DNA of 64,000 nt. Source: Cellulophaga sp. 20_2_10 (lineage in GTDB: Bacteria; Bacteroidota; Bacteroidia; Flavobacteriales; Flavobacteriaceae). The notes under the pieces were generated by a model. The model worked only from the letters and a program-made list of their open reading frames with translations. It was not told where the DNA came from and ran no database searches. The position numbers were made by a program, and so were the translations under genes. This document shows, in pieces, positions 18,971-36,157 of this stretch. The number at the start of each line of letters is the position of its first letter. Position 1 is the stretch's first letter. Where the stretch lies: assembly GCF_023476645.1 (NCBI RefSeq), contig NZ_JAMCOJ010000002.1, forward strand, positions 33,561 through 97,560, in the 5' to 3' direction.

Positions 18971-19013
18971 TAAAAGTAGCAGTAGTGGTATCTTTAAACT
19001 ATGACATTTATCA
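18971..19013 (-). promoter_or_regulatory. Fnr-type promoter of usp (site A)
   Basis: The palindrome TGACATTTATCA (19002-19013, TGAC-N4-ATCA) is followed on the minus strand after 23 nt by TACTTTTA (18971-18978), one base from TAnnTTTG. Transcription would start near 18964, about 20 nt before the usp ATG. The plus-strand side, where there is no gene start, has no in-register -7 element. Confidence 0.65.
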
Positions 19014-19037
19014 TTTAATAAAAAAGAAGGAAGTTTT

Positions 19038-19724
19038 CTACAAACCGCTAATAACGGTTTCCAATTTTGGAATATTTAAAATACGTATTTTTTTACCAGA
19101 AGTTTCTATTATTCCTTTTTTCTTAAATTCAGATATAATTCTAATTGTAGACTCTGTAGCTGTACCTACTACATTACTCATATCTTCTCTAGTAAGGCTC
19201 AGGTTTAAAAAACCAAGCTCGTCTTCTCCAAAGTTATCTTTAAGGTAAATAAAAGCTTCTGCAATACGTTGTTTTACTGTTTTCTGAGAGATATTTACAA
19301 TAACATCATCTGCATCTCTTAGGTCTTTTGCCATATGGCGCAATACCTCTACAGCAAAGTTAGGGTTGGTGTTTAAAGTGTGTAGAATACTTTCTTTAGG
19401 GATAAAGCAAACGTCCATATCTTTAATAGCAATTGCGCTTAAGTTTGCAGATTCTTCTGCAATAACAGAGCGTTGGCCTAATATTTCTCCTTTAGAAGCA
19501 AGTTTTATTATTTGGTCTTTTCCGTTAGAACTTAATTTAGATAGTTTAGATACGCCATCTCTAACACAAAAAACACCATCTAATCTATCTCCTTCTTCAA
19601 AAATTGCATCGCCCTTTTTAAAGGTCTTGGAAACCTTGGTGTCCGAAACCTTTTTTAACTCTTCCTTGCTCATAGCTCGCAAAGAGTTAAACTGACGAAT
19701 AATACAATTTTCACATCTACTCAT
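19038..19724 (-). CDS. Crp/Fnr family transcriptional regulator
   Basis: Regulator of 228 residues with an N-terminal cyclic-nucleotide-type beta-roll (about 20-140) and a C-terminal winged helix (about 150-220; LTREDMSNVVGTATESTIRI). It has four cysteines: C4, C7, C53 and C106. C4-x2-C7 and C106 (in DVCFIP) line up with C20, C23 and C122 of E. coli FNR. The position of FNR C29 is Asn or Phe here, so one standard Fe-S ligand is missing. The recognition helix keeps the Glu and Arg of FNR. It is flanked by usp and, divergently, ccoI, and both it and its neighbours carry TGAY-N4-RTCA sites. It is the likely regulator of the whole respiration island, including its own gene. Confidence 0.9.
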   Translation of the reverse strand: MSRCENCIIRQFNSLRAMSKEELKKVSDTKVSKTFKKGDAIFEEGDRLDGVFCVRDGVSKLSKLSSNGKDQIIKLASKGEILGQRSVIAEESANLSAIAIKDMDVCFIPKESILHTLNTNPNFAVEVLRHMAKDLRDADDVIVNISQKTVKQRIAEAFIYLKDNFGEDELGFLNLSLTREDMSNVVGTATESTIRIISEFKKKGIIETSGKKIRILNIPKLETVISGL

Positions 19725-19746
19725 AATGTTTTTTTACCTGACACAA

Positions 19747-19820
19747 CAAATTTACAGCTTCTACGATAACCGAAACCTGACAATTGTCATATTTTTAAAT
19801 ACTTCTATCATGGACCTTTG
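19747..19820. promoter_or_regulatory. Divergent Fnr-type promoters of the fnr-like gene and ccoI (site B)
   Basis: The perfect 12-bp palindrome TGACAATTGTCA (19778-19789) serves both directions. On the minus strand, after 23 nt, lies TAAATTTG (19747-19754), an exact -7 match, leading to the regulator gene. On the plus strand, after 23 nt, lies GACCTTTG (19813-19820) with TTTG in register, leading to ccoI. Leaders would be about 16-17 nt in both cases. Autoregulation plus activation of ccoI is inferred. Confidence 0.75.
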
Positions 19821-19843
19821 TTTTTAGCTTAACTTGCTTATAA

Positions 19844-22219
19844 ATGAATAAAGAAAAATGTTTTCATTGTGGAGATGACTGTGATATAGTACCAATTGTG
19901 TTTAAAGATAAGCATTTTTGTTGCAATGGATGCAAAACAGTCTTTGAGATTTTTGAGTCTAATGATTTGTCGTACTATTATGATTTACAATCTGCTGCTG
20001 GTGCTACACCAAACGAGGTAGAAGGTAAATACAACTTTCTAGATACTCCAGAAATTTTAGATAAGCTTATCGAGTTTAATGAAAAGAAGCATCAGATAGT
20101 TAATCTATATATTCCACACATACACTGTAGTTCTTGTATTTGGATTTTAGAAAACCTAAATAAATTGCAAAAGGCAGTAAGTAGTTCTCAGGTAGATTTT
20201 CCAAAAAAAATGGTGCGTATAGCCTACAATCCAGAAGAGTTAACGCTAAAGCAATTGGTTATTTTATTAGCTAAAATTGGCTATGAACCGTATATCTCTT
20301 TAGACGATTATGACAAAGGAAAAAAGAGCGTAGATCGTGGTCTTATTTATAAATTAGGGGTTGCTGGTTTTGCCTTTGGTAATGTTATGTTTCTATCCTT
20401 TCCTGAGTATTTTGAAGTTCAGGAATTTTGGTTAGATCAGTATAAAAATATATTTAGGTGGTTAATGTTTGTTTTTGCTTTACCTGTTGTTTTTTATTCG
20501 GCTCAGGATTATTTAATATCGGCATACAAAAGTATTGCTTCTAAAATTTTAAATATTGATGTTCCAATAGCATTGGGTGTTTTGGTTCTTTTTATACGCA
20601 GTACTTTAGAGATTGTTTTTGATTGGGGAACCGGTTTTTTTGATAGTCTTACTGGCTTAATTTTCTTTTTGTTATTAGGTAAATTTTTTCAACAAAAAAC
20701 ATATTCTTTTTTATCTTTTGAGCGCGATTATAAGTCGTACTTTCCAATAGCAGTAACTAGAATTTTATCAGGAGGTAAAGAAGAAACAGTACAGGTTTAC
20801 GACATTAAACAAGGCGACAGGCTTTTAATTAGAAATGAAGAATTAATACCAGTAGATGGTATCGTTTTAAAAGGAAATGCACGTATAGATTATAGTTTTG
20901 TAACGGGGGAATCAGAGGCCGTAGAAAAGGTTTCTGGCGATAAAATTTTAGCAGGGGGCAAGCAGTTACAAGGGGCCATAGAAATGGAAGCCTTAAAATC
21001 CGTATCTCAGAGTTACTTAACACAGCTTTGGGGTAATTCTGTTTTCTCTATAGATAAGACTAGCAAGTTCCAAACCATAACAGATAAAATTAGCCAACGT
21101 TTTACTATAGCTGTTTTAACCATTGCATTTGTAGCTACTTTTATTTGGATGTTTATAGATAGTAGTAAGGCTATGAATGTGTTTACGGCTGTATTAATAA
21201 TTGCTTGTCCGTGTGCAATTGCCCTAGCGGCACCTTTTACATTAGGGAATATGTTGCGCATTTTTGGGCGTAAAAAATTCTACTTAAAAAACACCCAAAC
21301 TATAGAGCAGTTAGCACAATTAACTACCGCTATTTTTGATAAAACAGGTACATTAACTACGGCTCAAAAAAGCACCGCTACTTATGAAGGTCTTACTTTA
21401 ACTAAGGAGGAAGAATTACTCTTAAAAAATACATTACGTGCCTCTAATCATCCATTAAGCAGAACACTTTATAGCTTGTTAGCTGAGCAAGATATTTTAA
21501 CCTTAGATGAGTATCAAGAACATCTAGGGAAAGGAATTGTAGGAGTTTTAGAGCATAATAATATCAAAGTTGGTTCTGCAAGCTTTGTTGGTAATGCTAG
21601 TATTGTTAACCAAGAAAATACTGCTGTTTATGTTAGTAGTAACGACACTTATAAAGGTAGATTTGTTTTTTCTAACGAATATAGAGAAGGTGTTTCTAAA
21701 TTATTTTCAGAAATGCAAGAAATGTTAGATTTAGGTATTTTATCTGGTGATAACGAAGGAGAGAAGCAACGTTTGGAGGCTTTGTTGCCAAAAAATACTC
21801 CGTTATATTTTAATCAGAAACCAGAAGATAAATTAGGTTTTATACAGCGTTTACAGGATCAAGGAAAAAAAGTACTTATGGTTGGCGACGGATTAAATGA
21901 TGCAGGGGCTCTTGCACAGAGTGATGTTGGTATTGCAATATCTGAGAATGTAAATGTGTTTTCACCTGCGTGTGATGGTATTTTGGATGCATCTAAATTT
22001 AAACAACTAAATCAATATATAAAAGCATCTAAAAGTGCAATGAATATTATTAAATTTAGTTTTGGGTTTTCTCTCTTGTATAATGTAATAGGGTTATACT
22101 TTGCTACAACTGGGCAGCTAATGCCCGTTATTGCGGCTATTTTAATGCCTTTAAGTTCTATAAGTATTGTATTGTTTACCACTATAGCAACAAATTTTTT
22201 AGGTAAAAAACTAGTGTAA
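19844..22219 (+). CDS. ccoI: Heavy-metal P-type ATPase CcoI (cbb3 copper supply)
   Basis: P1B-type copper ATPase of the CcoI/FixI group, 791 residues, that loads copper needed by cbb3 oxidase. The N-terminus has a Cys-rich putative metal-binding unit (C6, C9, C13, then FCCNGC at 25-30), followed by an HMA domain with CSSC at 95-98. The actuator loop has TGES (354-357), the membrane copper motif is CPC at 455-457, and the phosphorylated aspartate is D499 in DKTGT. The hinge GDGLNDAGAL is near 682-691. It is separated from the ccoNOP operon by the nirK operon but shares the same Fnr-type promoter architecture. A terminator follows at 22263. Confidence 0.93.
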   Translation: MNKEKCFHCGDDCDIVPIVFKDKHFCCNGCKTVFEIFESNDLSYYYDLQSAAGATPNEVEGKYNFLDTPEILDKLIEFNEKKHQIVNLYIPHIHCSSCIWILENLNKLQKAVSSSQVDFPKKMVRIAYNPEELTLKQLVILLAKIGYEPYISLDDYDKGKKSVDRGLIYKLGVAGFAFGNVMFLSFPEYFEVQEFWLDQYKNIFRWLMFVFALPVVFYSAQDYLISAYKSIASKILNIDVPIALGVLVLFIRSTLEIVFDWGTGFFDSLTGLIFFLLLGKFFQQKTYSFLSFERDYKSYFPIAVTRILSGGKEETVQVYDIKQGDRLLIRNEELIPVDGIVLKGNARIDYSFVTGESEAVEKVSGDKILAGGKQLQGAIEMEALKSVSQSYLTQLWGNSVFSIDKTSKFQTITDKISQRFTIAVLTIAFVATFIWMFIDSSKAMNVFTAVLIIACPCAIALAAPFTLGNMLRIFGRKKFYLKNTQTIEQLAQLTTAIFDKTGTLTTAQKSTATYEGLTLTKEEELLLKNTLRASNHPLSRTLYSLLAEQDILTLDEYQEHLGKGIVGVLEHNNIKVGSASFVGNASIVNQENTAVYVSSNDTYKGRFVFSNEYREGVSKLFSEMQEMLDLGILSGDNEGEKQRLEALLPKNTPLYFNQKPEDKLGFIQRLQDQGKKVLMVGDGLNDAGALAQSDVGIAISENVNVFSPACDGILDASKFKQLNQYIKASKSAMNIIKFSFGFSLLYNVIGLYFATTGQLMPVIAAILMPLSSISIVLFTTIATNFLGKKLV

Positions 22220-22262
22220 AAAAAGTTAAGGTAGTAAGCTAAGGTAGAAAGTATCGTATATA

Positions 22263-22297
22263 AAAAGAGCAACTCTAAAATCAAGAGTTGCTCTTTT
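22263..22297. terminator. Bidirectional terminator between ccoI and the porin gene
   Basis: The 14-bp perfect stem AAAAGAGCAACTCT / AGAGTTGCTCTTTT (22263-22276 with 22284-22297, loop of 7) lies between two convergent genes and has T-rich flanks on both strands. Confidence 0.88.
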
Positions 22298-22317
22298 GCT
22301 GCTAAATAATAAAAAGG

Positions 22318-23577
22318 TTAGTTACTAGTATAGCTAAAAAAATGAGGTTTAAAAGTGATCATTGCCCAAGCCCAATTGTTGGTTTTAGAGGCATCTCCTC
22401 CTTTTATTGTCTCCATAGTGTCTGTGGCAAACATTTGTGAATAACCAGCGTTAAACGTAATACTTTTAGATGCTTTGTAACCTAATGTAAGATCTATTTC
22501 TGTTCCTAAGTAGTTGTCTTGTTCTATATTATTAATAGCTATTACGGTAGCTGCCGCACTAAAAAAGTGAGGGGCCAAATTAGCAGAGAATTTATTTTTA
22601 GTATAGTTTATTTTTGCATTAAAATCTAAAAGGCCAACAGAGTTACTATGGTTGCCGACATAAAAATAATCCATAGTACCATTAAATTTATGATTGGTTC
22701 CAAACCAAGGAGTAAAAGAATGTAACTCGCCATCTGTCTCGTTCATATCTGTACCAGAGATATATTCTGCACCAAGACCAACCAGAAACTCTGAGTTAAG
22801 GCTATAGCTAAAATTAGCACTTGCGTTTAAAGCGGAAAGAGCTGTTTTTTCTATTTTACCTGTTTGTACATAGATAGCAGCATCTGCATTCCATTTATTT
22901 TCTGTAATACCACTGGTTAAACCAATAGTTTGGTTATATGCTATTTTTTGCTCGTTAACATCTGTATATGCAAAACCTGTATTTAAAAATAAGAAACTTA
23001 ACCCTATTTTATTAAAATTGGTATTGTACCATAAGTACTGAAAGTTTTTATAATTGTTTACTGTGTAATCTTGTTCAAAAACGGATTCAGAATTCTCGTT
23101 TAAAGCAAAACCAATATCTATTCTATTGTTAACATCTGCTTTAAATTTAATTCTAAGAGCATCGTGGCTACGTGCTTGTTGGTTCCAATTTACGCTACCA
23201 AAAATACGTTCGTTATCATAGGCAATTTCTTGCCTACCTAACTTAAAACTAAACTTTCCTAAAAAAGCTTCTGCCCAGGCTTGTTGCAGTGTTATGCCAT
23301 TTAGATCTGTAGTAGATAATGTGCCAACGTCTCCCCAGGTTCTAACATTTTGAGCAGATATGTACGCATTAAAATCAGTGCTTAAATAGCCAAAATTAAG
23401 CCTAGTTCTTTGCGATACAAAAGACGCAGCATCTACAGCATCGGAATTAAGAGTTTTGTAACCGTTTCTATATTCAAATCTAGGTTTTAACTCAGCATCT
23501 AAGTCAAACTGTTGCGCGTTAGATTGCTGAATGCATATTAAGAATAGAATACTAAATATACTTTTTAATAACTTCAT
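22318..23577 (-). CDS. Outer-membrane porin, alginate-export-like
   Basis: Beta-barrel outer-membrane protein of 419 residues with a signal peptide (about 1-21, cleaved near SNAQQ). It opens with AELKPRFEYRNGYKTL and continues with the long strand pattern typical of the alginate-export (AlgE-like) porin fold, including KLGRQEIAYDNERIFGSVNW. It is the last gene of the nirK operon and overlaps the stop of the di-iron repair gene by 4 nt (ATGA). The family occurs in Bacteroidota that do not make alginate, so the name is structural. In this context it may admit nitrite or another respiration substrate, which is inference only. Confidence 0.8.
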   Translation of the reverse strand: MKLLKSIFSILFLICIQQSNAQQFDLDAELKPRFEYRNGYKTLNSDAVDAASFVSQRTRLNFGYLSTDFNAYISAQNVRTWGDVGTLSTTDLNGITLQQAWAEAFLGKFSFKLGRQEIAYDNERIFGSVNWNQQARSHDALRIKFKADVNNRIDIGFALNENSESVFEQDYTVNNYKNFQYLWYNTNFNKIGLSFLFLNTGFAYTDVNEQKIAYNQTIGLTSGITENKWNADAAIYVQTGKIEKTALSALNASANFSYSLNSEFLVGLGAEYISGTDMNETDGELHSFTPWFGTNHKFNGTMDYFYVGNHSNSVGLLDFNAKINYTKNKFSANLAPHFFSAAATVIAINNIEQDNYLGTEIDLTLGYKASKSITFNAGYSQMFATDTMETIKGGDASKTNNWAWAMITFKPHFFSYTSN

Positions 23578-24308
23578 ACCTGTTCTTTTTTTTGTATCGC
23601 TTTCTCAAAGATGATGGCTTTAGGAAAAAGAATGTTATTCTCTAAATGTACATGCTTATGTAAGTCCTGTTCAAACTCATTTAATTTATTATAGAGTGCT
23701 TTAAATGTGTTGCAAGCACCTTCAGGCGGAGTATAGTTATTACTTAATATGGAGATTTGTTTTAATAGATCACCTGCAATTTCATGTTCCGTTTCCATCA
23801 TTTTTATTGGATTTTCTATAGTTCCAAATTGTGGTTTACTTATAAAAGAAGCTCCATTTTTTTCTGCAACCATACGTTTTATAAAGGGGAAAAGAATAAT
23901 TTCCTCTTTTTTCATATGTGATGCAAGTTCTTGTATAACCTGGTGTATTATGTTGTTTATTTCTACTACTTCGGTATAATGATGTCCATGTACTTTAGCA
24001 ACTTTGTCTGAATATTGAATAAGTATAGTGCTAGCTTCTTCTACATATTTATGATGTGTGTTTACTATATAATCTGCTAAATAGTCTATTTCCCATTCGT
24101 TGTAATTGTGACTGGTAACCACATTAGCATCAATAGCAATAAGTTCTTTTTTTAGTTCGTCTAAATTTGTGTTACTTTTTTCACAAGCTTTTTCTAGTGT
24201 AATGCCTCCACCGCAACAAAAATCTATGCCGTGCTTTTTAAATATATCTGCAGTCTTAATATTTTCTGTTACTATTGCTGCTACTGTTTTGTTTTTAATT
24301 ATTTCCAT
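23574..24308 (-). CDS. Iron-sulfur cluster repair di-iron protein (RIC/ScdA/YtfE family)
   Basis: RIC-family hemerythrin-like protein of 244 residues. It has the N-terminal ScdA domain with CC at 31-32 (HGIDFCCGGG), followed by a hemerythrin domain whose His/Glu ligands are spread through HHKYVEEAS, HGHHYTEV, HMKKEE, ETEHEIAGD and HKHVHLENN. Known members repair Fe-S clusters damaged by nitric oxide and peroxide. Its place directly in the nirK operon, 4 nt after the SCO gene, fits protection against NO made by NirK. All expected motifs are present. Confidence 0.92.
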   Translation of the reverse strand: MEIIKNKTVAAIVTENIKTADIFKKHGIDFCCGGGITLEKACEKSNTNLDELKKELIAIDANVVTSHNYNEWEIDYLADYIVNTHHKYVEEASTILIQYSDKVAKVHGHHYTEVVEINNIIHQVIQELASHMKKEEIILFPFIKRMVAEKNGASFISKPQFGTIENPIKMMETEHEIAGDLLKQISILSNNYTPPEGACNTFKALYNKLNEFEQDLHKHVHLENNILFPKAIIFEKAIQKKEQV

Positions 24309-24312
24309 ACTA

Positions 24313-25026
24313 CTAGTAATTAGATTCCGTAATTATTTTAGCTACTGTTTCTGCATTATCTACACCCAAACCTTCTTGTTGGTGCATAAGAACACCTTCT
24401 TTGTTAAAAACACTTATAATATTAGAGTGAGAAAAATCTTTTGGTGAAATTTGCTTATAACTTACTGCTAAAACGGCTGCAAATTCTCTTGTATCTTCTA
24501 CTGAACCGGTTAAAAATATAAACTGATCACTGTCCATTTGGTTTTCTTTAGCAAACTCTTTTAAACGAGTAGGTGTATCTGTTATAGGATCTATACTTAC
24601 AAAAACTAATTTTACGTTATTTTTTTGTTCGTCCGGAATTTGTCTTTCTATATTTCTCATATCAGAAACAAGTCTAGGACAGGCAGATGTGCAGGTGGTG
24701 TAAATCATAACCATAACCAATACATCGCCTTTTAAATCTAGCAAAGAGATGTTTTCGTTGTTTTGGTTTGTCCATTTTGAGGGTAAATTAAAAATGGACA
24801 TTTCTGGAATTTCACCATCGTTTTTTATACTGGTGTTTGCTAGTTCCGTATCCATTTTACAAATAGGACATTTTTGTGGTTCTGTATAGGTTTTTTCTCC
24901 TTCGCAATGCATTGGGCATTGGTATAAAGCAGTGTCCTTCTTCACTGTTTCTTTGCAAGAAAATGTGACTACTGATAGTAAAATAAGTAGGATTACATTT
25001 ACTTTTTTTAAATTATAATTTTTCAT
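24313..25026 (-). CDS. SCO1/SenC family lipoprotein with an added metal-binding CPMH/CPIC module
   Basis: Copper chaperone/thioredoxin-fold protein of the SCO family, 237 residues. It has a lipoprotein signal with C24 as the lipidated residue (VTFSC). Next comes a small heavy-metal-binding module, CPMHC at 37-41 and CPIC at 53-56, of the kind also seen in CopA and CusB in this window. The SCO domain follows with the copper motif C112-x3-C116 (TCTSACP) and a distal His in KDFSHSN. SCO proteins deliver copper to cuproenzymes at the membrane. In this operon the client is most likely NirK. It overlaps the upstream FGE-like gene by 14 nt. Confidence 0.9.
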   Translation of the reverse strand: MKNYNLKKVNVILLILLSVVTFSCKETVKKDTALYQCPMHCEGEKTYTEPQKCPICKMDTELANTSIKNDGEIPEMSIFNLPSKWTNQNNENISLLDLKGDVLVMVMIYTTCTSACPRLVSDMRNIERQIPDEQKNNVKLVFVSIDPITDTPTRLKEFAKENQMDSDQFIFLTGSVEDTREFAAVLAVSYKQISPKDFSHSNIISVFNKEGVLMHQQEGLGVDNAETVAKIITESNY

Positions 25027-25792
25027 CTGTTATGTCTTTTACGCATCTAAATCCTAAATTTCTCATAGCATAATTTGCTTTTATACTGCCTCTAAATGCA
25101 TAACGCATAAAAGCGGCATAGTTCATTAGATCTGTAGCCCCAATAGCGGCTGTGCCACAGAATAAATTGCTGTCTTTGTCTACATCTTTTCTAGATTCTC
25201 CAGATATTAAAACGGAGTTAAAATCACCAGTCCATTCCCAAACTAATCCATGTAAATCATAAATCCCCCAATAGTTTTTAAACGTACTGCCTATTTTGTT
25301 TTTATTAGTTTTAGGGGTTTCGTACCAGCTTAAAATAAATTGATTGTATGTTTTTTTTTGTCGTGCATCTGGCAATTCTTCATCCGCCATAGCAGCGTAT
25401 TCCCATTCATCAATTGTAGGTAATCTTTTGTTTTGGCACTCGCAGTAATTTTTTGCTGCAAACCATGATACTTCTGTAATAGGCGTATCTTTTTTTAAAT
25501 TGATGCCCAGAATGGTATCAGATTGCCACGTACTAAGGTAATTTTTATCAGCAAAAAGACCTTTTACATTAGATCGTCTCCATTTTGGATTTTCTTTTAC
25601 AAAATTTAAAAACTGAAGATTGGTTACTGGGTACACATCCATTTTAATACTAGCTACTTTTACCTTAACAGAATCGCTACCATAAAGCGGAATATATTCT
25701 CCGCCTTTAATAATAACCATTGGGCTAACTTGAGCCTGTGCTATACAAAGTGTAGCAATTAAAAGGGATAACGTAAGTCCAATGGTTCTCAT
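25013..25792 (-). CDS. Formylglycine-generating-enzyme-like protein, NirV type
   Basis: SUMF1/FGE-fold protein of 259 residues with a signal peptide (about 1-20). Conserved family segments are present: PVTNLQFLNFVKENP, ITEVSWFAAKNYCE, RLPTIDEWEYAA, DLHGLVWEWTGDF and a final AMRNLGFRCVKD. NirV, a protein of this fold, often accompanies nirK in other bacteria but its biochemical role is not settled. It is encoded 38 nt after nirK and overlaps the SCO gene, so it belongs to the nirK operon. Periplasmic location is predicted. Confidence 0.85.
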   Translation of the reverse strand: MRTIGLTLSLLIATLCIAQAQVSPMVIIKGGEYIPLYGSDSVKVKVASIKMDVYPVTNLQFLNFVKENPKWRRSNVKGLFADKNYLSTWQSDTILGINLKKDTPITEVSWFAAKNYCECQNKRLPTIDEWEYAAMADEELPDARQKKTYNQFILSWYETPKTNKNKIGSTFKNYWGIYDLHGLVWEWTGDFNSVLISGESRKDVDKDSNLFCGTAAIGATDLMNYAAFMRYAFRGSIKANYAMRNLGFRCVKDITDEKL

Positions 25793-25830
25793 AGTTTATA
25801 ATTTTAAAGAGGTGTATAATTAAGTTTAGA

Positions 25831-27300
25831 TTAATGGCTATTTTTAACACCGTTAACCATTTTTGTAGTTACTACACTTTTGTTATTGCCCCAGTTGTTA
25901 TATACATAAGTTAATACATCTGCGATTTCTTCAGAAGAGATTACCTGCTTGGTCATAACACTATTGTATTTTTGTCCGTTTACAGTAATTTCTCCTGATT
26001 TCCCATGCAATACAATACCAATAGCTCTGTTTACATCAGCATTTAAATAATCTGACTTCGCTAAAGGAGGAAAAGCATTTGGTATACCTTGCCCTTCTGC
26101 TTGGTGACAAGCAAAACAGGTTTGGGAATATATCTGCTTACCAGCAGATAGTTGTTCTTCTAAAGATTTTATAACTTCTACATCTGCAACTTCTTTTTTA
26201 TTGCCATTAGGCATTTCTTGTATACCACTTCCTTCTGGCTGGTAAATTCCTTCTTGTATAGTTCCAGAGTAAATATCTTTTTTTTCTTCACCAGAAACTT
26301 TAAGCATTCCTAGTGCACCTTTATTAAAAGCTCTAAAAATTGAATGATCTACCAGTATAAAAGTACCAGGGACCTCAACCTTAAACTCAACTATAGTAGC
26401 ACTACCAGCTGGTATAAGTGTGGTTTGTACATTTTCATTAACTAAAGAACCACCTTCTACGTGTACTTTGTCAAAAATTTCACCAATTACGTGGAAAGAT
26501 GATACCAAGTTTGGACCACCGTTACCAACATATAGTCTAATAGTTTCACCAACCTCAGCAACAATAGCATTATCACCAGTAAGGGCATCTACACTACCAT
26601 TAAAAACTACATAGTCTGCATTTTCATCTACTGCTTTTTGCATATCAAATGCTTGTAAGCCTGGTTCTCCGTTTTTACCTTTTGTATAAAAATCGCCCTG
26701 CATAATATAATATTCACGATCTACAGGAGGTAAGCCACCTTTAGGTTCTACTAAAATTAAACCGTACATACCATTTGCAATGTGCATACCAACTGGTGCA
26801 GTAGCACAGTGATATACATAAAGACCAGGATTTAATGTTTTAAACGAAAATTTAATCTCGTGTCCTGGAGCAACAAAAGAAGATGTTGCACCACCACCAG
26901 GGCCAGTAACAGCATGCATATCTATGTTGTGTGGTAGTTTGTTGTCTGGGTGGTTTTTTAAAGTAAATTCTACTTCATCACCAACACGGGTTCTAATAAA
27001 GCTACCTGGTACACTACCACCAAACGTCCAGTAGTTATATTTAACTCCATTAGTCATAGTACCTTCTTTTTCTAGCACTTCCATATTAACCAACAACTTT
27101 TTTGCCGCACGGTTGCCAACAGATCTAGGCACATTAGGAGGCGAAGTTAATGTCGCAACTAATTCGCCACGTGTTTCTATAGTCGTAGAATCTTGGTTTG
27201 TACTTTCTGCTTTTTTGCAACTAGCTACTAGTAGTAAGAAAGCAAAAAGAACATACAGAACTTTTAGATTTGGTAAATAATTATTGAATTGATTTTTCAT
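25831..27300 (-). CDS. nirK: Copper nitrite reductase with a C-terminal cytochrome c domain, lipoprotein
   Basis: NO-forming nitrite reductase of 489 residues. A lipoprotein signal ends at C28 (LLLVASCKK). Two cupredoxin domains carry a full set of ligands. Type 1 copper: H124, C165, H173, M178. Type 2 copper: H129, H164 and H319. Catalytic D127 and H270 match the D98/H255 pair of known NirK. A cytochrome c domain follows with CFACH at 395-399 and a likely Met ligand at M449, so electrons may reach the type 1 copper from a fused haem. It leads the operon nirK-nirV-sco-RIC-porin and its promoter holds an Fnr-type site. No NO reductase gene is in the window. Confidence 0.95.
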
Positions 27301-27337
27301 AATAAACTGTTTTAAATGAAGGGGTTGTTATTGTGAA

Positions 27338-27411
27338 CAAAGATCATTGTGATAAATAGTTTAAAGTATGATATATATCATATATTGTAAAAGTGAACAT
27401 TATTATTTTTG
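27338..27411. promoter_or_regulatory. Divergent Fnr-type promoters of nirK and ccoS (site C)
   Basis: A 16-bp perfect palindrome (27367-27382) contains the core TGATATATATCA at 27369-27380. After 23 nt on the plus strand comes TATTTTTG (27404-27411), an exact -7 element for ccoS. After 23 nt on the minus strand comes GATCTTTG (27338-27345), TTTG in register, for nirK. The palindrome centre would sit near -42 of both transcripts, the class II activator position. Confidence 0.75.
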
Positions 27412-27431
27412 TAATATAAATTCAGGTAGGT

Positions 27432-27632
27432 ATGAGTGTAATTTATGTGTTGCTGTCTATAAGTATTGTAGTGGCGCTGTTTTTCTTTGTAGCATTTATA
27501 GTTTCGGTAAGGAGTGGTCAGTATGACGATTCTTACACACCGTCTGTACGTATGCTTTTTGAAGATGAACTGGTAAAAGAGAGCTCTAAAGCTCAAGAAA
27601 GTAAAAAAATCGAACAAACTAAGATGAATTAA
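27432..27632 (+). CDS. ccoS: cbb3-type cytochrome oxidase assembly protein CcoS
   Basis: Small membrane protein of 66 residues with one N-terminal helix (about 3-23, VIYVLLSISIVVALFFFVAF) and a short SGQYDDSYTPSVRMLF region typical of CcoS. CcoS is needed to insert cofactors into cbb3 oxidase. It is the first gene of the cco operon and stops 3 nt before ccoNO. The start is supported by the promoter about 14 nt upstream. Confidence 0.92.
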   Translation: MSVIYVLLSISIVVALFFFVAFIVSVRSGQYDDSYTPSVRMLFEDELVKESSKAQESKKIEQTKMN

Positions 27633-27635
27633 ATT

Positions 27636-29834
27636 ATGGAAGTACAACAGTTTTATTACGATAACAAGATCGTAAAGAAATTTCTCTATGCTACAATATT
27701 TTGGGGTATTGTAGGTATGTCAGTAGGTCTACTTTTAGCCTTTATGTTTCTTTTTCCAAATATAACCGATGGTATTTCATGGTTAAGTTTTGGTAGGCTA
27801 AGACCATTACACACAAATGCAGTAATTTTTGCCTTTGTTGGTAACGCTATTTTTGCGGGTGTTTATTACTCTACGCAACGTTTGCTTAAAGCGCGTATGT
27901 TTAGTGATGGACTAAGTAAATTTAACTTTTGGGGCTGGCAAGCTATAATTGTAGCGGCAGCAATTACGTTACCATTAGGGTATAGTACATCTAAAGAATA
28001 CGCAGAATTAGAATGGCCAATAGATATTGCTATTGCTGTAGTTTGGGTAGCCTTTGGCTGGAATCTTATTGGGACCATGTTACGCAGAAGACAAAGACAT
28101 TTATATGTTGCAATTTGGTTTTACCTAGCAACATTTGTAACTGTAGCTGTATTACATATTTTTAATAGTTTAGAATTGCCAGTAAGTGCCTTTAAAAGTT
28201 ACTCTGTTTATGCCGGTGTGCAAGATGCCTTAGTGCAGTGGTGGTACGGACATAATGCAGTTGCATTTTTCTTAACTACACCATTTTTAGGGTTAATGTA
28301 TTACTTTGTGCCTAAAGCGGCGAATAGACCGGTATACTCTTATAGGTTATCTATTGTACACTTTTGGTCGTTAATATTTATATATATCTGGGCAGGACCA
28401 CACCACTTGTTGTATACTGCTTTACCAGGTTGGGCTCAAAATTTAGGAGTAGCGTTCTCTATTATGTTACTTGCTCCTTCTTGGGGTGGTATGATAAACG
28501 GACTTTTAACCTTGCGTGGGGCTTGGGATAAAGTACGTACAGACCCTACTCTTAAATTTATGGTAGTAGCCATTACTGGTTATGGTATGGCAACTTTTGA
28601 AGGTCCTTTACTTTCGTTGAAAAACGTAAATGCCATAGCTCACTTTAGTGACTGGATTATTGCTCACGTACACGTTGGTGCATTAGCCTGGAACGGATTT
28701 TTAACTTTTGGTATGATCTACTGGATGGTGCCTAAAATGTTTAAAACAAAATTACACTCTATCAGTTTGGCAAATGCTCACTTTTGGATTGGTACTTTAG
28801 GTATAATTCTTTATACGTTACCAATGTATGTGGCAGGGTTTACACAAGCCTTAATGTGGGAAGATTTTAATCCAGATGGGACATTAGTTTATGGTAACTT
28901 TTTAGAAACTGTAAAAGAAATTATACCAATGTATTGGATGCGTGCAATAGGTGGTAGTATGTATATTATTGGTGCATTTATAATGTTGTACAATGTCTTT
29001 AGAACAATACGTTCTGGACAAAAAGTTGAGGATGAATTGGCAGAAGCAGCTCCGCTTACTAGAGTCTCTAAAAAGAGAACAAAAGGAGAGACATACCACT
29101 CTTGGTTAGAGCGTAAGCCAGTACAGTTAACAATATTAGCTACAGTAGCTATTTTAATTGGTGGTATAGTGCAGATTGTACCAACCATTTTAGTGAAATC
29201 TAACATACCAACGATTACAAGTGTAAAACCATATACACCATTAGAATTAGAAGGTAGAGATTTATATATAAGAGAAGGTTGTGTTGGTTGTCACTCGCAA
29301 ATGGTGCGTCCGTTTAGAGGAGAGGTAGAGCGTTATGGCGAATATGCCAAGGCAGGTGAGTTTGTGTACGATCATCCATTTTTATGGGGGAGTAAGCGTA
29401 CAGGTCCAGATTTACTTAGAGTAGGTGGCAAATACTCAGATAACTGGCATTTAAACCATATGTACGATCCACAAAGTACATCTTCGGGTTCTATAATGCC
29501 TGCATATCAATGGCTAGTTCGCGATGAGCATGACAGAAGCAATATTAAAACTAAAATGGAAGCAATGGTAACTTTAGGGGTGCCATATACAGAAGAAGAT
29601 ATTGCTAATGCAGAACAATCTATGGATGTACAGGCAACCAAAATAGAGAAGAATTTATATACAGATCCAGATTTTGCAAAGAACTACGAGGCAGATAAAA
29701 AATATGCCAAAGAAAACGGAGAACCTTTTGTAGAAATGAGAGATAGAGAAATAGTGTCTCTAATAGCTTACTTACAGCGTTTAGGTACAGATATTAAAAT
29801 AAAAAACGTAGAAGAAACAACCACTAAAAATTAA
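27636..29834 (+). CDS. ccoN: Fused CcoN-CcoO, cbb3 oxidase subunits I and II
   Basis: Catalytic subunit of the cbb3 oxygen reductase fused to the monohaem cytochrome c subunit, 732 residues. Residues 1 to about 480 form the 12-helix CcoN part with haem and copper histidines in RPLHTNAVIF, WWYGHNAVAF, GPHHLLYT and HVHVGALAWN. A linker with one helix (about 495-515) leads to the CcoO domain with CVGCH at 549-553 and a Met ligand in GSIMPAYQW. The N-O fusion is the usual arrangement in Bacteroidota. The enzyme reduces oxygen with high affinity in the inner membrane. Confidence 0.96.
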   Translation: MEVQQFYYDNKIVKKFLYATIFWGIVGMSVGLLLAFMFLFPNITDGISWLSFGRLRPLHTNAVIFAFVGNAIFAGVYYSTQRLLKARMFSDGLSKFNFWGWQAIIVAAAITLPLGYSTSKEYAELEWPIDIAIAVVWVAFGWNLIGTMLRRRQRHLYVAIWFYLATFVTVAVLHIFNSLELPVSAFKSYSVYAGVQDALVQWWYGHNAVAFFLTTPFLGLMYYFVPKAANRPVYSYRLSIVHFWSLIFIYIWAGPHHLLYTALPGWAQNLGVAFSIMLLAPSWGGMINGLLTLRGAWDKVRTDPTLKFMVVAITGYGMATFEGPLLSLKNVNAIAHFSDWIIAHVHVGALAWNGFLTFGMIYWMVPKMFKTKLHSISLANAHFWIGTLGIILYTLPMYVAGFTQALMWEDFNPDGTLVYGNFLETVKEIIPMYWMRAIGGSMYIIGAFIMLYNVFRTIRSGQKVEDELAEAAPLTRVSKKRTKGETYHSWLERKPVQLTILATVAILIGGIVQIVPTILVKSNIPTITSVKPYTPLELEGRDLYIREGCVGCHSQMVRPFRGEVERYGEYAKAGEFVYDHPFLWGSKRTGPDLLRVGGKYSDNWHLNHMYDPQSTSSGSIMPAYQWLVRDEHDRSNIKTKMEAMVTLGVPYTEEDIANAEQSMDVQATKIEKNLYTDPDFAKNYEADKKYAKENGEPFVEMRDREIVSLIAYLQRLGTDIKIKNVEETTTKN

Positions 29835-29838
29835 TTAT

Positions 29839-30033
29839 ATGCTAAAGTTTATAAAAGGCCATATGGAGAGCATGGAGGGTATAGCAACTTACCCTATGAT
29901 ATCGCTACTTATATTTTTTGTGTTCTTCGCCATACTTTTTTGGTGGGTGCTTACAGCAACAAAAGAACATATTAATGAGGTAAGCCATATTCCTCTAGAT
30001 GATGATGATACAACCAACCTAACAAAAGAATAA
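29839..30033 (+). CDS. ccoQ: CcoQ-like small subunit
   Basis: Protein of 64 residues with one membrane helix (about 20-40, PMISLLIFFVFFAILFWWVL) and an acidic tail. Sequence similarity to proteobacterial CcoQ is weak, but the size, topology and position between ccoNO and ccoP, with 4-nt gaps on both sides, identify it. It probably stabilises the oxidase complex. Confidence 0.82.
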   Translation: MLKFIKGHMESMEGIATYPMISLLIFFVFFAILFWWVLTATKEHINEVSHIPLDDDDTTNLTKE

Positions 30034-30037
30034 TACT

Positions 30038-30931: not shown

Positions 30932-30962
30932 AGGAGTATTATTACTAGTAAAAATAATAAGA

Positions 30963-32378: not shown

Positions 32379-32389
32379 AACGAATAGTT

Positions 32390-32836
32390 ATGAAAATAAA
32401 TTGGGGAACAGGAGTTGTACTAGCGTTTTTAGCTTTCATAAGCTTTATTCTATATTTTGTTATTAGGATGAATTCTGAAAACAGAGCAAAGCACGATTTA
32501 GTGACGGAAGAATATTACAAAGCAGAGTTAGGCTACCAAAAAGAGTTGAATGACGCTACTAATGCTTATAAATTAACGAATAAACTTGTTCTAGAAAAAA
32601 CGGAGGACGGCTTGTTAATTGAATTTCCAAAAGATCAAGATTTTAATAAAATAACAGGTAATGTGTCCCTATATAGACCATCTAATAAACAATTGGATTT
32701 TAACTTACCCATAAGTTTATCCAAAACACATTTGCTCATACCTGACAAACGTTTGTTAGATGGTCGATGGGACATTAAAATTACTTGGCAATACAATAAA
32801 GAAGAATATTTACACAAACAAAGTATTACGTATTAG
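32390..32836 (+). CDS. ccoH: FixH/CcoH family protein
   Basis: Single-helix membrane protein of 148 residues (helix about 5-25, WGTGVVLAFLAFISFILYFV) with the conserved DLVTEEYYKAELGYQ segment just after it. CcoH is an assembly partner of cbb3 oxidase. It starts 11 nt after ccoG and ends 2 nt before the SafE-like gene. Confidence 0.92.
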   Translation: MKINWGTGVVLAFLAFISFILYFVIRMNSENRAKHDLVTEEYYKAELGYQKELNDATNAYKLTNKLVLEKTEDGLLIEFPKDQDFNKITGNVSLYRPSNKQLDFNLPISLSKTHLLIPDKRLLDGRWDIKITWQYNKEEYLHKQSITY

Positions 32837-32838
32837 TT

Positions 32839-33540
32839 ATGCTACTATCTGCTTTTATACTGGGATTAATGGGGAGTCTGCACTGCGTTGGTATGTGCGG
32901 TCCTATTGCTTTTATGTTACCAGTAGATAGACACAGTAAGCTCAAAAAAACAATCCAGATATTTATTTATCATTTTGGGAGATTATTGGCTTACGGAATA
33001 ATTGGGCTTGTTTTTGGCCTGCTTGGTAAGGGTTTGTATGTTTTTGGTTTGCAACAAAAATTGTCAATCTTTATTGGTGTTGTTATGATTATTATCGTTC
33101 TAATTCCATCTAAAACATTAAATAAATACAATCTGTCTAAGCCTATATATAGACTTATCTCTAAGGTGAAGTCTAGGTTGGGGAAAGAACTTAAAAAGAG
33201 AACTCCAGATACTTTTTTAACCATAGGATTTTTAAATGGTTTTTTACCTTGTGGGTTGGTTTATATGGCACTGTTTGGAGCTATTGCAATGGGTAATGCA
33301 GCACAAGGATCTCTATATATGATTCTTTTTGGAGCAGGGACTATACCACTTATGACTGTTGCTGTTTATTTTGGAGGAATGTTAAAAGGCGTAGCTCGTA
33401 AAAAGGTACAACAATTAATTCCGGTTTTTGTGGTCGTAATTGGTGTGTTATTTATTCTTAGAGGCTTGGGCCTTGGTATACCTTATGTGTCTCCTAAGCC
33501 TGTAGTAGAAATGGTTTCTACAGATATGGAGTGTCACTAA
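32839..33540 (+). CDS. TauE/SafE-like (DsbD-type) membrane protein of cbb3 maturation
   Basis: Polytopic membrane protein of 233 residues with about six helices. The first helix contains LHCVGMCGP with C16 and C20, a likely copper-handling pair, and a later helix has NGFLPCGLVY. Proteins of this sulfite-exporter/SafE-like group are regularly found at the end of cco operons in Bacteroidota and Proteobacteria and are thought to help copper delivery. The 2-nt spacing from ccoH supports a function in oxidase assembly, not sulfite export. Confidence 0.85.
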   Translation: MLLSAFILGLMGSLHCVGMCGPIAFMLPVDRHSKLKKTIQIFIYHFGRLLAYGIIGLVFGLLGKGLYVFGLQQKLSIFIGVVMIIIVLIPSKTLNKYNLSKPIYRLISKVKSRLGKELKKRTPDTFLTIGFLNGFLPCGLVYMALFGAIAMGNAAQGSLYMILFGAGTIPLMTVAVYFGGMLKGVARKKVQQLIPVFVVVIGVLFILRGLGLGIPYVSPKPVVEMVSTDMECH

Positions 33541-33558
33541 TTTTTAAAAATTAAATTT

Positions 33559-34827
33559 ATGAATATTGTTTCTGCAGCGCAAGCCGCAAAATCTATAGAA
33601 TCTGGTAATAGAGTTTTTTTACAAGGTGCAGCAATGACGCCTAATGTATTAATTGATGCTTTGTGTGAGCGATACAATGAGCTAGAAAACGTAGAAATTG
33701 TATCTATACATACAGAGGGCGAAGCTAAGTATGCGCAAGAACCTTATAGCAATAGTTTTAAGATGAATAGCTGTTTTGTTGGTAGCAATGTTAGAAAACT
33801 AATAAACACCACTCAAGGAGATTATATTCCAATTTTTTTAAGTGAAATTAATCTCTTGTTCAGAAATGGTATTCTTCCGTTAGATGTTGCTGTGGTACAA
33901 GTATCACCGCCAGATAAACACGGGTATTGCTCTTTAGGTGTTTCTGTAGATATTACATTGCCAGCGATACAAACAGCTAAAAAAGTAATAGCACAAATTA
34001 ATCCTTTTGTGCCAAGAACACACGGTGATGGTATTATACATATAAGTAATATAGATTGTGCTATAGAAGTAAATACTCCAATACATACACACGGTATTAC
34101 ACCTATATCTAGTATAGAACAAGAGATTGGAAAACACGTAGCTGGTTTAATAGAAGATGGTGCAACCTTGCAAATGGGTATTGGTAACATACCTAATGCG
34201 GTATTAAGTAATTTAGGCAACCACAAACGTTTGGGTATACATACAGAAATGTTTTCTGATGGTGTTTTGCCTTTAATAGAAAGCGGCGTAATTACGGGTG
34301 AAGATAAAGTGGTAAAACACGGAAAAATTGTAACTTGTTTCGCTGTTGGTTCTCAAAAGTTGTACGACTTTGTAGACGATAATCCATTAGTGCACTTTAA
34401 AGAAGCAGCCTATACCAACGATACTTCTATTATACGTAGAAACCCAAAAGTTACAGCTATTAATAGTGCTATAGAAATAGATATCACAGGTCAGATTTGT
34501 GCAGATACTATTGGTAGTAGACAATATTCTGGTGTAGGCGGACAAATGGATTTTATACGTGGTGCATCTTTATCTAAAGGTGGTAAGCCTATTTTTGCAA
34601 TGCCATCTATGACAGCAAAAGGGATTTCTAAAATAACTCCGTTTTTAAAGCAAGGAGCCGGAGTTACAACAACACGTGCACATGTACATTATGTAGCAAC
34701 AGAATACGGAGTAGTTAATTTATATGGTAAAAATTTACAAGAAAGAGCAAAAGCATTAATCTCTATTGCACACCCTAACTTTAGAGAAGAATTAGAAAAA
34801 GAAGCATACAACCGTTTTAAAAGTTAA
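33559..34827 (+). CDS. Acetyl-CoA hydrolase/transferase family protein (class I CoA-transferase)
   Basis: CoA-transferase of the Cat/acetyl-CoA hydrolase family, 422 residues, which moves CoA between short carboxylic acids such as acetate, succinate, propionate or 4-hydroxybutyrate. The catalytic glutamate is expected in HTEMFSDG near residue 229. The glycine-rich motif GVGGQMDFIRGA is present, as are GIGNIPNAVL and the C-terminal TEYGVVNLYGKNL. Its ATG is 18 nt after the SafE-like gene with no terminator or promoter between, so it appears to be part of the cco transcript. That makes it an unusual passenger that may link acyl-CoA metabolism to oxygen limitation. Specificity is not readable. 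Confidence 0.88.
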   Translation: MNIVSAAQAAKSIESGNRVFLQGAAMTPNVLIDALCERYNELENVEIVSIHTEGEAKYAQEPYSNSFKMNSCFVGSNVRKLINTTQGDYIPIFLSEINLLFRNGILPLDVAVVQVSPPDKHGYCSLGVSVDITLPAIQTAKKVIAQINPFVPRTHGDGIIHISNIDCAIEVNTPIHTHGITPISSIEQEIGKHVAGLIEDGATLQMGIGNIPNAVLSNLGNHKRLGIHTEMFSDGVLPLIESGVITGEDKVVKHGKIVTCFAVGSQKLYDFVDDNPLVHFKEAAYTNDTSIIRRNPKVTAINSAIEIDITGQICADTIGSRQYSGVGGQMDFIRGASLSKGGKPIFAMPSMTAKGISKITPFLKQGAGVTTTRAHVHYVATEYGVVNLYGKNLQERAKALISIAHPNFREELEKEAYNRFKS

Positions 34828-34853
34828 TTTTATAGAACGATAAAAGCTTCAGA

Positions 34854-36065
34854 CTAGTTTTCTTTTTTAATGAAGAATGATGTTGCAAAAATATATAAAA
34901 TTGCGATTACAATTAATAAACTAGCTAAGGCTAATAGTTTAAAATATGTATGGGGTAATGGTAAACTTTGCCAAATAATAAAGCCTTTATAAAATATAAG
35001 AGCTTCAGTTAATAAAAATCCTGAGAGGTATATGTAATATGCTTTTTTCGGGATTTTTATCATTCTAAAATAGTCTAGAAATAAGAATAAAGTAATAGTT
35101 ACTACACCTAAAAAAGTCCAGTGTAAATAACCAATTGTAAAATCTAAAATTGTCACGGCTAAATTAGCAAAATAGGGTAGTGCCGTTAATAATTGAAGTG
35201 TCATTTTTAGCACTAATAAGAAACCAACTGTTTTTAATAGTAAGAGTTGAAAACTAGAAAATAGAACACTAATTTTTTTACTGTTTTGTTTTAAATAGTT
35301 AACTATTAGAAACAAACTATATAGCTGAAAAATAGCACCAATGCCACCCAGTATATATAAAATAATAGGAGGTTTTGTAAATAGAGTAGATAAAAAGAAT
35401 GTTCCTATTATTCCGATATTTATACTGTAAAAAAAGCGTTTAAAAACAGCTTTAGGTACTTGTATATTTTGTTCCTCTAAAATGTACAGTAGTATGCCTA
35501 TTAAGGCTAAAATCATCCATCCGTTGTACTGAAAGTGTAAATAGAAATAGATAGCCAATCTGTACCAAATAGATGTAGCGCCTAGTGTGGTCATAATTCC
35601 GCCTAAAGCCCAAGGGCCTATGCTAGAAATTACCAGATACCACAGCGCAGCGTTACTACAAGAATAAGAGTTTCGGTTTTTATCTTCTAATGAAATGTAC
35701 TTTTTAAAAAATATAAAAAACCAATACGATGCTATTAAAAACAGCGTAGAAAATACAATTGAAAATAAGGCATATCCCTGAAAAGGAAACGAACAAAGCA
35801 TACCAACTAATGTAAGTTGAGTAAACCAGAATATATAATTGTATTTTTTTTGTACCTGTAATTTTTCTAGATACAACTTATAAATAAGTGTGGTTAGTGC
35901 AATGTATACCCAGCCCAGCAATGCGATATGCGAATGTGCGTGCACTACAAATTTAAACGTAATTGGTATTTCTAAAACATAGAAAAAACGTAGAATTAAC
36001 CCTAATAAAGCAGCCATTAAAAAATAACCTAATGCTAGTCTAGAATGATTTTTTAGATACTTCAT
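34854..36065 (-). CDS. Polytopic membrane protein, haem-copper-oxidase subunit I-like
   Basis: Membrane protein of 403 residues with about 12 helices. The second helix carries three histidines, H42, H44 and H46, in VHAHSHIALLGWVY, a pattern reminiscent of haem-binding helices of CcoN and NorB. Further histidines occur in YFYLHFQYNGW (about H177) and GYLHWTFLG (about H316). It is too short, and lacks too many ligands, to be a normal oxidase. It is not a recognised NnrS either, though a similar role in haem or NO handling is possible. It is transcribed divergently from the 607-residue protein at 36197, with an Fnr-type site shared between them. Function unknown. Confidence 0.7.
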   Translation of the reverse strand: MKYLKNHSRLALGYFLMAALLGLILRFFYVLEIPITFKFVVHAHSHIALLGWVYIALTTLIYKLYLEKLQVQKKYNYIFWFTQLTLVGMLCSFPFQGYALFSIVFSTLFLIASYWFFIFFKKYISLEDKNRNSYSCSNAALWYLVISSIGPWALGGIMTTLGATSIWYRLAIYFYLHFQYNGWMILALIGILLYILEEQNIQVPKAVFKRFFYSINIGIIGTFFLSTLFTKPPIILYILGGIGAIFQLYSLFLIVNYLKQNSKKISVLFSSFQLLLLKTVGFLLVLKMTLQLLTALPYFANLAVTILDFTIGYLHWTFLGVVTITLFLFLDYFRMIKIPKKAYYIYLSGFLLTEALIFYKGFIIWQSLPLPHTYFKLLALASLLIVIAILYIFATSFFIKKEN

Positions 36066-36083
36066 GTTACATATTTATTAGAC

Positions 36084-36157
36084 TAAATATCTTTTTTTAA
36101 AAATAGGCAAAGCCTGACTAAAATCATATAATAACATCTTTTATGTTCTCTATTTTG
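36084..36157. promoter_or_regulatory. Divergent Fnr-type promoters of the two poorly known genes (site D)
   Basis: TGACTAAAATCA (36115-36126, TGAC-N4-ATCA) lies between the divergent genes. After 23 nt on the plus strand comes CTATTTTG (36150-36157), and after 23 nt on the minus strand GATATTTA (36084-36091), both with the TTT core in register. Leaders would be about 33 nt and 12 nt. The layout copies sites B and C. Confidence 0.65.

Follow-up and report, generated by a model that had tools for sequence, protein, structure and literature searches.

A stretch of 64,000 nucleotides (nt) from Cellulophaga sp. 20_2_10 (contig NZ_JAMCOJ010000002.1, positions 33,561 to 97,560, forward strand; hereafter the window) holds four palindromes of the form TGAY-N4-RTCA, around which seven respiratory and neighbouring genes each present an eight-base element at one fixed distance. 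The questions raised by this locus are what kind of promoter such a geometry represents, which protein would act on it, and how far beyond the window the arrangement extends. The seven elements are likely to be class II activator-dependent sigma-A promoters of a low-oxygen regulon of the Crp/Fnr type, a reading that is drawn from sequence comparison. By direct reading, the four palindromes and the seven boxes of the initial annotation were all recovered at their positions, each pair 23 nt apart, and the plus side of palindrome A lacks a box, as had also been said there.

The simplest alternative is chance, given that AT-rich intergenic DNA often yields palindromes as well as TTTR. The palindrome alone was in fact dropped as evidence, because its count in the window shows no enrichment (TGAYNNNNRTCA, six matches against a mean of 2.90 in shuffles, with nine of 100 shuffles reaching six). 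The spacing, on the other hand, behaves differently: nnnnTTTR lies 23 nt out on seven of the eight palindrome sides and on at most two sides at every other spacing from 0 to 60, while TTTR occupies 34 of 928 intergenic positions, and the best count at any spacing among 20,000 mononucleotide shuffles of the flanks was four of eight, which was reached in 37 of them. Two further palindromes of the window, one in ccoP (30490) and the other in a 510-codon open reading frame (ORF; 55625), are both coding, and a box is found on none of their four sides.

The same spacing is maintained in close relatives. A profile of the regulator gene was searched and the best 80 matching loci were kept, so that the set consists of close kin; the closest among the matches listed is Cellulophaga fucicola, with 98% identity, and the others come from Maribacter, Muricauda/Allomuricauda, Arenibacter, Croceitalea and similar genera. 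In these loci, the box stands at 23 nt on 301 of 609 palindrome sides, at 22 nt on seven and at 24 nt on two, and the remaining spacings from 0 to 60 have a mean of 12.2 sides, with a maximum of 54 at 0 nt. The composite of palindrome and box was found before ccoI (74), usp (72), ccoS (72) and the regulator (60), counts that are not rates, given that some of the contigs are cut, and the last of these sites is autoregulatory in position, as the composite faces the regulator's own gene. Eight of the 301 composite sides have no ORF by the rule applied. The last 15 bases of the spacer are nearly random (pairwise identity 0.31-0.39), although its length is kept.

Over the whole of this genome, the palindrome occurs 148 times (296 sides) and the composite 24 times. 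Seven of the 24 are those of the window, and ten of the other 17 lie 17-37 nt before a plausible ORF. The genes that follow these ten encode the oxygen-independent coproporphyrinogen oxidase HemN, a metallo-lactamase/rhodanese protein, a ferritin-family protein, a flavin oxidoreductase, a pyridine-nucleotide oxidoreductase, a thioredoxin-like protein, an asparaginase, a reprolysin-like peptidase and a protein without assignment, together with a 43-codon ORF. The last of these (L018:1342-1470; composite at G000:C12:238711, 30 nt upstream) lies 2.5 kb from the hemN site and would encode a small, apparently membrane-spanning protein.

Across 199 Flavobacteriaceae genomes, a stricter pattern with a W4 centre was scanned, which misses sites whose centre contains G or C (ten true-looking sites of this kind, the usp sites of loci with two regulators, escape it). 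The N27 pattern was found 2969 times, against 545 matches with one extra base (N28) and 266 for the reversed pattern, i.e., controls that are 5 and 11 times rarer, respectively. These counts and the 23-nt peak in the best 80 loci refute chance, whose probability we regard as negligible, and the composite is neither equally frequent in shuffled nor in mis-spaced sequence. Among 198 genomes from across the phylum, the pattern is rich in the Flavobacteriaceae, reaches up to 17 matches in a handful of families within its class, and elsewhere gives 0-7, mostly 0-2.

A close look was taken at 75 of the 98 composites of four family genomes. An ORF starts 3-60 nt past the box in 54 of the 75, and 50 boxes begin with TA, the corresponding values for 20 control matches with the spacing one base off being nine and six. 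At least one control, which precedes a ccoS-like gene in G145, resembles a true site whose spacer has 24 nt. The hemN gene is a target in all four genomes (three by model, and G166 by likeness), and ccoI, ccoS and usp are targets by likeness. Targets in one or two of the four are pyruvate formate-lyase (pflB), formate-tetrahydrofolate ligase, pyruvate phosphate dikinase, a 2-oxoacid:acceptor oxidoreductase, NadA, the [NiFe] hydrogenase small subunit, an MlaE permease and CBS proteins; several of the target ORFs are cut by the end of the stretch examined and thus fall below the cut-offs of full-length models. In relatives, the composite is strongly enriched near microaerobic genes, and the initial annotation, which had proposed one local respiration regulon, was right in kind and too local, as the motif is genome-wide and family-wide. 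The regulon would be a family-wide class II system, with a variant Fnr and a second regulator linked to a receiver domain.

The nature of the eight-base element determines how the palindrome is to be read. Escherichia coli CRP and FNR, when acting as class II activators, are centred at -41.5. In Flavobacterium psychrophilum, the -7 box TAnnTTTG of the Bacteroidota housekeeping sigma factor, sigma-A, was mapped at -12 to -5 (excerpt of PMC9723704), and the element found here is this known box, so that the TTT(G/A), which had been presented as a special feature, belongs to the -7 box that is usual in the phylum. This register places the 12-base palindrome at -47 to -36, centred on -41.5, which bears out the earlier placement near -42 (register from the excerpt of PMC9723704). 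The ends of the seven window boxes lie 18-39 nt from the ATG, which gives leaders of 14-35 nt, in near agreement with the 12-33 nt predicted before.

In a profile of 278 sites, in which the TTT and the G/A of the box were selected by the pattern, A stands at -11 in 277 sites and T at -12 in 203; neither letter was part of the search, and together they rebuild the TAnnTTTG box. The profile also has an A tract from -53 to -50 and a T tract from about -33 to -30, with no clear TTTG there. The TGA is preceded by C or A; T before TGA and A after TCA are each absent from all 278 sites, and were found in 7 and 2 of 130 sites, respectively, summed over four further site sets, which means that the FNR half-site TTGAT is not the one used. 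The promoters thus appear to combine the position of a class II Crp/Fnr-dependent site, with a polymerase box in fixed register, with the -7 box of a Bacteroidota sigma-A promoter.

A repressor that overlaps the -33 region and blocks the polymerase when oxygen is present would also fit a palindrome that abuts this region, and a rough spacing would be expected of it too. A repressor, however, has no need for the single-base spacing that was observed, -41.5 is the textbook position of a class II activator, and the -33 to -30 segment offers a T tract without a clear TTTG; repression is accordingly an improbable account of these sites, and activation is preferred.

The candidate activator is the Fnr-like regulator of 228 amino acids (aa) encoded between palindromes A and B, which has the Crp/Fnr fold, with a cyclic nucleotide monophosphate (cNMP)-like beta-roll and a Crp helix-turn-helix (HTH). 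Cys53 and Cys106 are present in all of 30 orthologues, and Cys4 and Cys7 in 29 as first aligned, the thirtieth (L048) having them too, upstream of the start first assumed; all four are thus invariant in 30 of 30 proteins, i.e., that of the window and 29 from the best 80 loci. Cys4, Cys7 and Cys106 align with the cluster cysteines of solved FNR-type regulators (9qlt and kin, the former of which we take to be the regulator of Aliivibrio fischeri), and Cys53 lies opposite an Ala of FNR. In the recognition helix, E191 and R195 are invariant, and presumably correspond to Glu209 and Arg213 of FNR; Ile194, likewise invariant, falls at the position of FNR Ser212 in our alignment and may be behind the missing T before TGA. 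The cluster of E. coli FNR is held by cysteines 20, 23, 29 and 122 (excerpt of PMC6659574), three of which have a counterpart here.

Given this pattern, Cys4, Cys7 and Cys106 probably hold an oxygen-sensing iron-sulphur (Fe-S) cluster, for which Cys53 would be the likeliest fourth ligand. In an AlphaFold model of middling confidence (mean pLDDT 70.9), Cys53 and Cys106 are both in beta strands, which may adjoin in the beta roll; FNR is not among the 50 fold matches listed for this model, which excludes nothing. The NCBIfam models of Fnr and FnrL give 98.9 bits against a cut-off of 228 and 85.8 against 300, so neither assigns the protein. The label "Fnr-type" thus holds for the palindrome, which is of the Crp/Fnr kind, and has to be qualified for the regulator, which has no Cys29 equivalent, and for the half-site, which is not TTGAT.

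The signal may also be considered from the side of the target genes. A low-oxygen regulon is suggested because the FNR regulon of the Alphaproteobacteria has the same core gene set (excerpt of PMC2908626), and the cbb3 oxidase of F. psychrophilum is strongly induced under oxygen limitation (excerpt of PMC9723704). If the signal were nitric oxide, in a role like that of DNR or NnrR, the genes would form a nitrosative-respiration regulon, and the region does contain nirK, a ScdA/hemerythrin-type protein and the divergent pair that encodes proteins of 403 and 607 aa. Of 30 orthologous loci each, 19 have the composite before nirK and 21 before the 607-aa gene; where it is missing, a few loci have a palindrome whose box is nearly right (TTTC, or shifted by one base), and others have no palindrome. 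Nevertheless, nirK occurs in only 38 of the 199 family genomes, against 133 with the Fnr-like regulator, the constant targets are oxidase assembly, hemN and usp, and the four invariant cysteines suggest an Fe-S cluster, although such clusters can react with nitric oxide as well. Nitric oxide is therefore an unlikely signal, and oxygen is favoured.

The two proteins of the divergent pair have no Pfam or NCBIfam match above cut-off, and no PDB match was found for the 403-aa membrane protein and no significant one for the 607-aa protein. The 607-aa family has long invariant stretches around ESGLNCGGHAF and AQGGVG, and the 403-aa protein has HxHSHIALLGW, which is invariant in four aligned relatives; that this protein is haem-copper or NnrS-like is a guess. 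In G112, nirK adjoins the 607-aa gene. Stops lie inside the match in two orthologues of the 607-aa gene (G211:C16:177816-179390 and G159:C1:639293-641095) and in one of nirK (G172:C7:165279-166748), which are possibly decaying copies or sequencing errors. In C. fucicola (L055), most of window 22540-27219, from nirK to the Alginate_exp gene, is missing, and a 132-nt remnant is kept (window 24129-24260, 95% identical). The nirK-side -7 box at site C remains there (L055 6921, plus strand) as a promoter without its gene, and this orphan and the remnant point to a deletion in that species.

The association of the motif with its regulator was followed in the 199 family genomes, in which the Fnr-like regulator was called at E<=1e-45 and a second protein, a fusion of a receiver domain with a Crp core (receiver-Crp), at E<=1e-55, both limits being our own. 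The 66 genomes without the Fnr-like regulator still average 8.8 sites; 29 of them have at least 10, and 28 of these 29 carry the receiver-Crp protein. The latter has 350-370 aa, as in L215:1498-2553, where Response_reg, cNMP_binding and HTH_Crp_2 (PF00072, PF00027 and PF13545) follow one another, and its recognition helix, G(I/T)ATE(S/T)xIR, resembles the GTATESTIR of the window regulator. Its receiver has a predicted phosphorylatable Asp, E8, D9, D52 and K104 being invariant in 12 aligned proteins. The protein is encoded immediately upstream of a composite-bearing usp gene in 12 of 30 loci (L195-L224, some of which hold other Crp proteins; examples are found among L204-L223), and was found in 100 of the 199 genomes by profile, the match in G206 being partial. 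In 10 of the 62 genomes with two regulators, the two regulator genes are about 1 kb apart on one strand (L350-L359), and all ten have the order receiver-Crp, usp, Fnr, with the composite before usp.

The mean number of sites per genome is 23.4 with both regulators (n=62), 13.3 with Fnr only (71), 13.9 with receiver-Crp only (38) and 1.7 with neither (28), on an off-by-one background of 3.1, 3.0, 2.1 and 2.1, respectively, in genomes that are related to one another, and some of the receiver-only genomes have more distant Fnr-like proteins. Many of the genomes with neither regulator are small; the 13 that have at least 2.5 Mb average 2.5 sites against a background of 2.2, and the exceptions in this group are G163 (11 sites, background 7) and G201 (6, background 1).

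These results bear on whether another Crp-type protein is the true binder in this genome. A second Crp/Fnr-type protein is encoded at G000:C56:72036, with 27% identity, and in other genomes the motif is also linked with receiver-Crp fusions; this genome (G000), on the other hand, has no receiver-Crp match at E<=1e-55, the motif flanks the regulator gene itself on either side, and its abundance tracks the regulator, as the contrast between Fnr-only genomes and those with neither indicates. We thus give little credence to another binder here, and the window regulator is retained. A possible motif difference between Fnr-only and receiver-Crp-only genomes is weak and post hoc, and is not claimed: T stands at -34 in 16 of the 30 sites used from G166 and G066 (31 listed) and in 4 of the 28 used from G094, G083 and G105 (44 listed; p=0.002), and the T at -43 gives only p=0.056. 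In the Fnr clade, too, a T at -34 is frequent at the ccoS and regulator sites.

The chances seem evenly balanced that the composite (A/C)TGAY-N4-RTCA(T/G)-N23-TAnnTTT(G/A) is the common output, across the Flavobacteriaceae, of two activators with differing inputs, so that the sensor swaps and the regulon stays. One of them would be a direct redox sensor, i.e., the Fnr with a relocated fourth ligand, Cys53, and the other the receiver-Crp fusion, which would be fed by phosphorylation. Lineages would retain either regulator or both, with the numbers of sites adding up accordingly.

In the window, the regulator is predicted to bind as a dimer to (A/C)TGAY-N4-RTCA(T/G) at -47 to -36, where the bound palindrome would stand in for the -33 box and the protein would contact an RNA polymerase sitting at the -7 box, TAnnTTT(G/A). 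At sites B, C and D, a single palindrome would drive both divergent genes. The regulator may thus control its own gene, the copper pump and the assembly proteins of the cbb3 oxidase, the oxidase itself, the nitrite reductase, the stress protein and the 403-aa/607-aa pair and, outside the window, probably hemN and up to about nine more genes, with oxygen being sensed by an Fe-S cluster on Cys4, Cys7 and Cys106, probably together with Cys53. The features involved are listed in Table 1.

Table 1. Palindromes, -7 boxes and genes of the putative regulon, with positions in the window.
Feature	Position	Strand	Remarks
usp, universal stress protein	18107-18943	-	PF00582 3e-19
-7 box TACTTTTA of usp promoter	18971-18978	-	23 nt from palindrome A
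Palindrome A TGACATTTATCA	19002-19013		would drive usp only, on the minus side; letters read directly
Fnr-like regulator, 228 aa, Cys4/7/53/106	19038-19724	-	cNMP_binding and HTH_Crp_2
-7 box TAAATTTG of the regulator's own promoter	19747-19754	-	23 nt from palindrome B
Palindrome B TGACAATTGTCA	19778-19789		common to regulator gene and ccoI; letters read directly
-7 box GACCTTTG of ccoI promoter	19813-19820	+	23 nt from palindrome B
ccoI-type heavy-metal P-type ATPase	19844-22219	+	E1-E2_ATPase, ATPase-cat_bd; TIGR01525 slightly below cut-off
nirK, copper nitrite reductase with C-terminal cytochrome c domain (Cytochrom_C)	25831-27300	-	TIGR02376 4.8e-104, passes cut-off
-7 box GATCTTTG of nirK promoter	27338-27345	-	23 nt from palindrome C
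Palindrome C TGATATATATCA	27369-27380		common to nirK and ccoS; letters read directly
-7 box TATTTTTG of ccoS-ccoNO promoter	27404-27411	+	23 nt from palindrome C
ccoS, oxidase assembly protein	27432-27632	+	TIGR00847, passes cut-off
ccoNO fusion, cbb3 oxidase subunits I/II	27636-29834	+	NF011053 (PRK14485) E=0
403-aa membrane protein, no family assigned, several invariant His	34854-36065	-	alignment of 4
-7 box GATATTTA of 403-aa membrane protein gene	36084-36091	-	23 nt from palindrome D
Palindrome D TGACTAAAATCA	36115-36126		common to 403-aa and 607-aa genes; letters read directly
-7 box CTATTTTG of 607-aa protein gene	36150-36157	+	23 nt from palindrome D
607-aa protein, no family assigned	36197-38020	+	in 76/199 family genomes

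Several observations weigh against a regulon of Fnr-controlled class II promoters. Only three of the seven window boxes start with TA, as GACCTTTG, GATCTTTG, GATATTTA and CTATTTTG have no T at -12 and CTATTTTG also has no A at -11. The base before TGA is A or C and hardly ever T, unlike that of FNR, and the position of FNR Cys29 is taken by Asn13, so that the canonical four-cysteine cluster is not present. Two genomes with the Fnr-like regulator, G065 and G060, have one site each, and elsewhere the promoters are kept in genomes that have the receiver-Crp protein and not the Fnr-like regulator, which means that a site alone names no binder. Finally, the other seven of the 17 composites outside the region are probably due to chance: six of them fall within a stop-free frame extending across the site (174 codons or longer, or another length), although in three of the six an in-frame start is also found no more than 21 nt away, and for the seventh (L001) no ORF begins within 90 nt.

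What is at stake is the low-oxygen switch to high-affinity respiration and denitrification in the flavobacteria, a group widespread in marine, soil and freshwater habitats. Through its single-base precision, the motif allows the regulon to be read off any family genome and its targets to be predicted, among them two conserved uncharacterised proteins, and the cysteine pattern lets one test how an Fnr works without the usual fourth ligand. The two-regulator reading would, if it holds, represent a natural exchange of sensors on a fixed promoter code. Among the papers listed in a search of open-access literature, none was recognised as a description of this flavobacterial regulon. The main text of the F. 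psychrophilum promoter paper (PMC9723704) makes no mention of Fnr, Crp or "palindrom", and carbon sensing was predicted for one Crp/Fnr homologue of the Flavobacteriales (excerpt of PMC8510549).

Among the known systems, HcpR, HcpR2 and DNR also bind palindromes of the Crp/Fnr family with a four-base centre (TTGACnnnnGTCAA, GTAACnnnnGTTAC and CTTGATnnnnATCAAG, respectively), which differ from (A/C)TGAYnnnnRTCA(T/G), as do their targets (excerpt of PMC1274295). The motif of DNR, CTTGATnnnnATCAAG, is not that of the flavobacterial sites, which avoid T before TGA (same excerpt, PMC1274295).

The regulator resembles the FNR of E. coli and A. fischeri in its Crp fold and in the equivalents of Cys20, Cys23 and Cys122 (Cys4, Cys7 and Cys106), and its sites share the class II position, -41.5, with those of FNR. 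It departs from FNR, and from the cysteine pattern of the E. coli protein in particular, in having no Cys29 equivalent, an invariant Cys53, Ile194 in place of Ser212, and a half-site that avoids T before TGA. The FNR of Acidithiobacillus ferrooxidans likewise keeps Cys20, Cys23 and Cys122 and not Cys29, and is reported to be more air-stable, with the Ser at 29 or the Cys at 40 as the proposed fourth ligand (excerpt of PMC6659574), the corresponding candidate here being Cys53.

A close parallel is the core regulon of alphaproteobacterial FnrL (Dufour et al. 2010; excerpt of PMC2908626). Cytochrome c oxidase subunits I/II, a heavy-metal P-type ATPase, UspA, the oxygen-independent coproporphyrinogen oxidase and the regulator itself belong to both, as does the clustering of the genes beside that of the regulator (excerpt of PMC2908626). 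The FnrL palindrome is TTGAY-N4-RTCAA (same excerpt, PMC2908626), whereas the flavobacterial half-site, (A/C)TGAY, does without the leading T, and the flavobacterial system further differs from this core in that its promoters use the Bacteroidota -7 box and that the motif is shared with another regulator, which is linked to a receiver.

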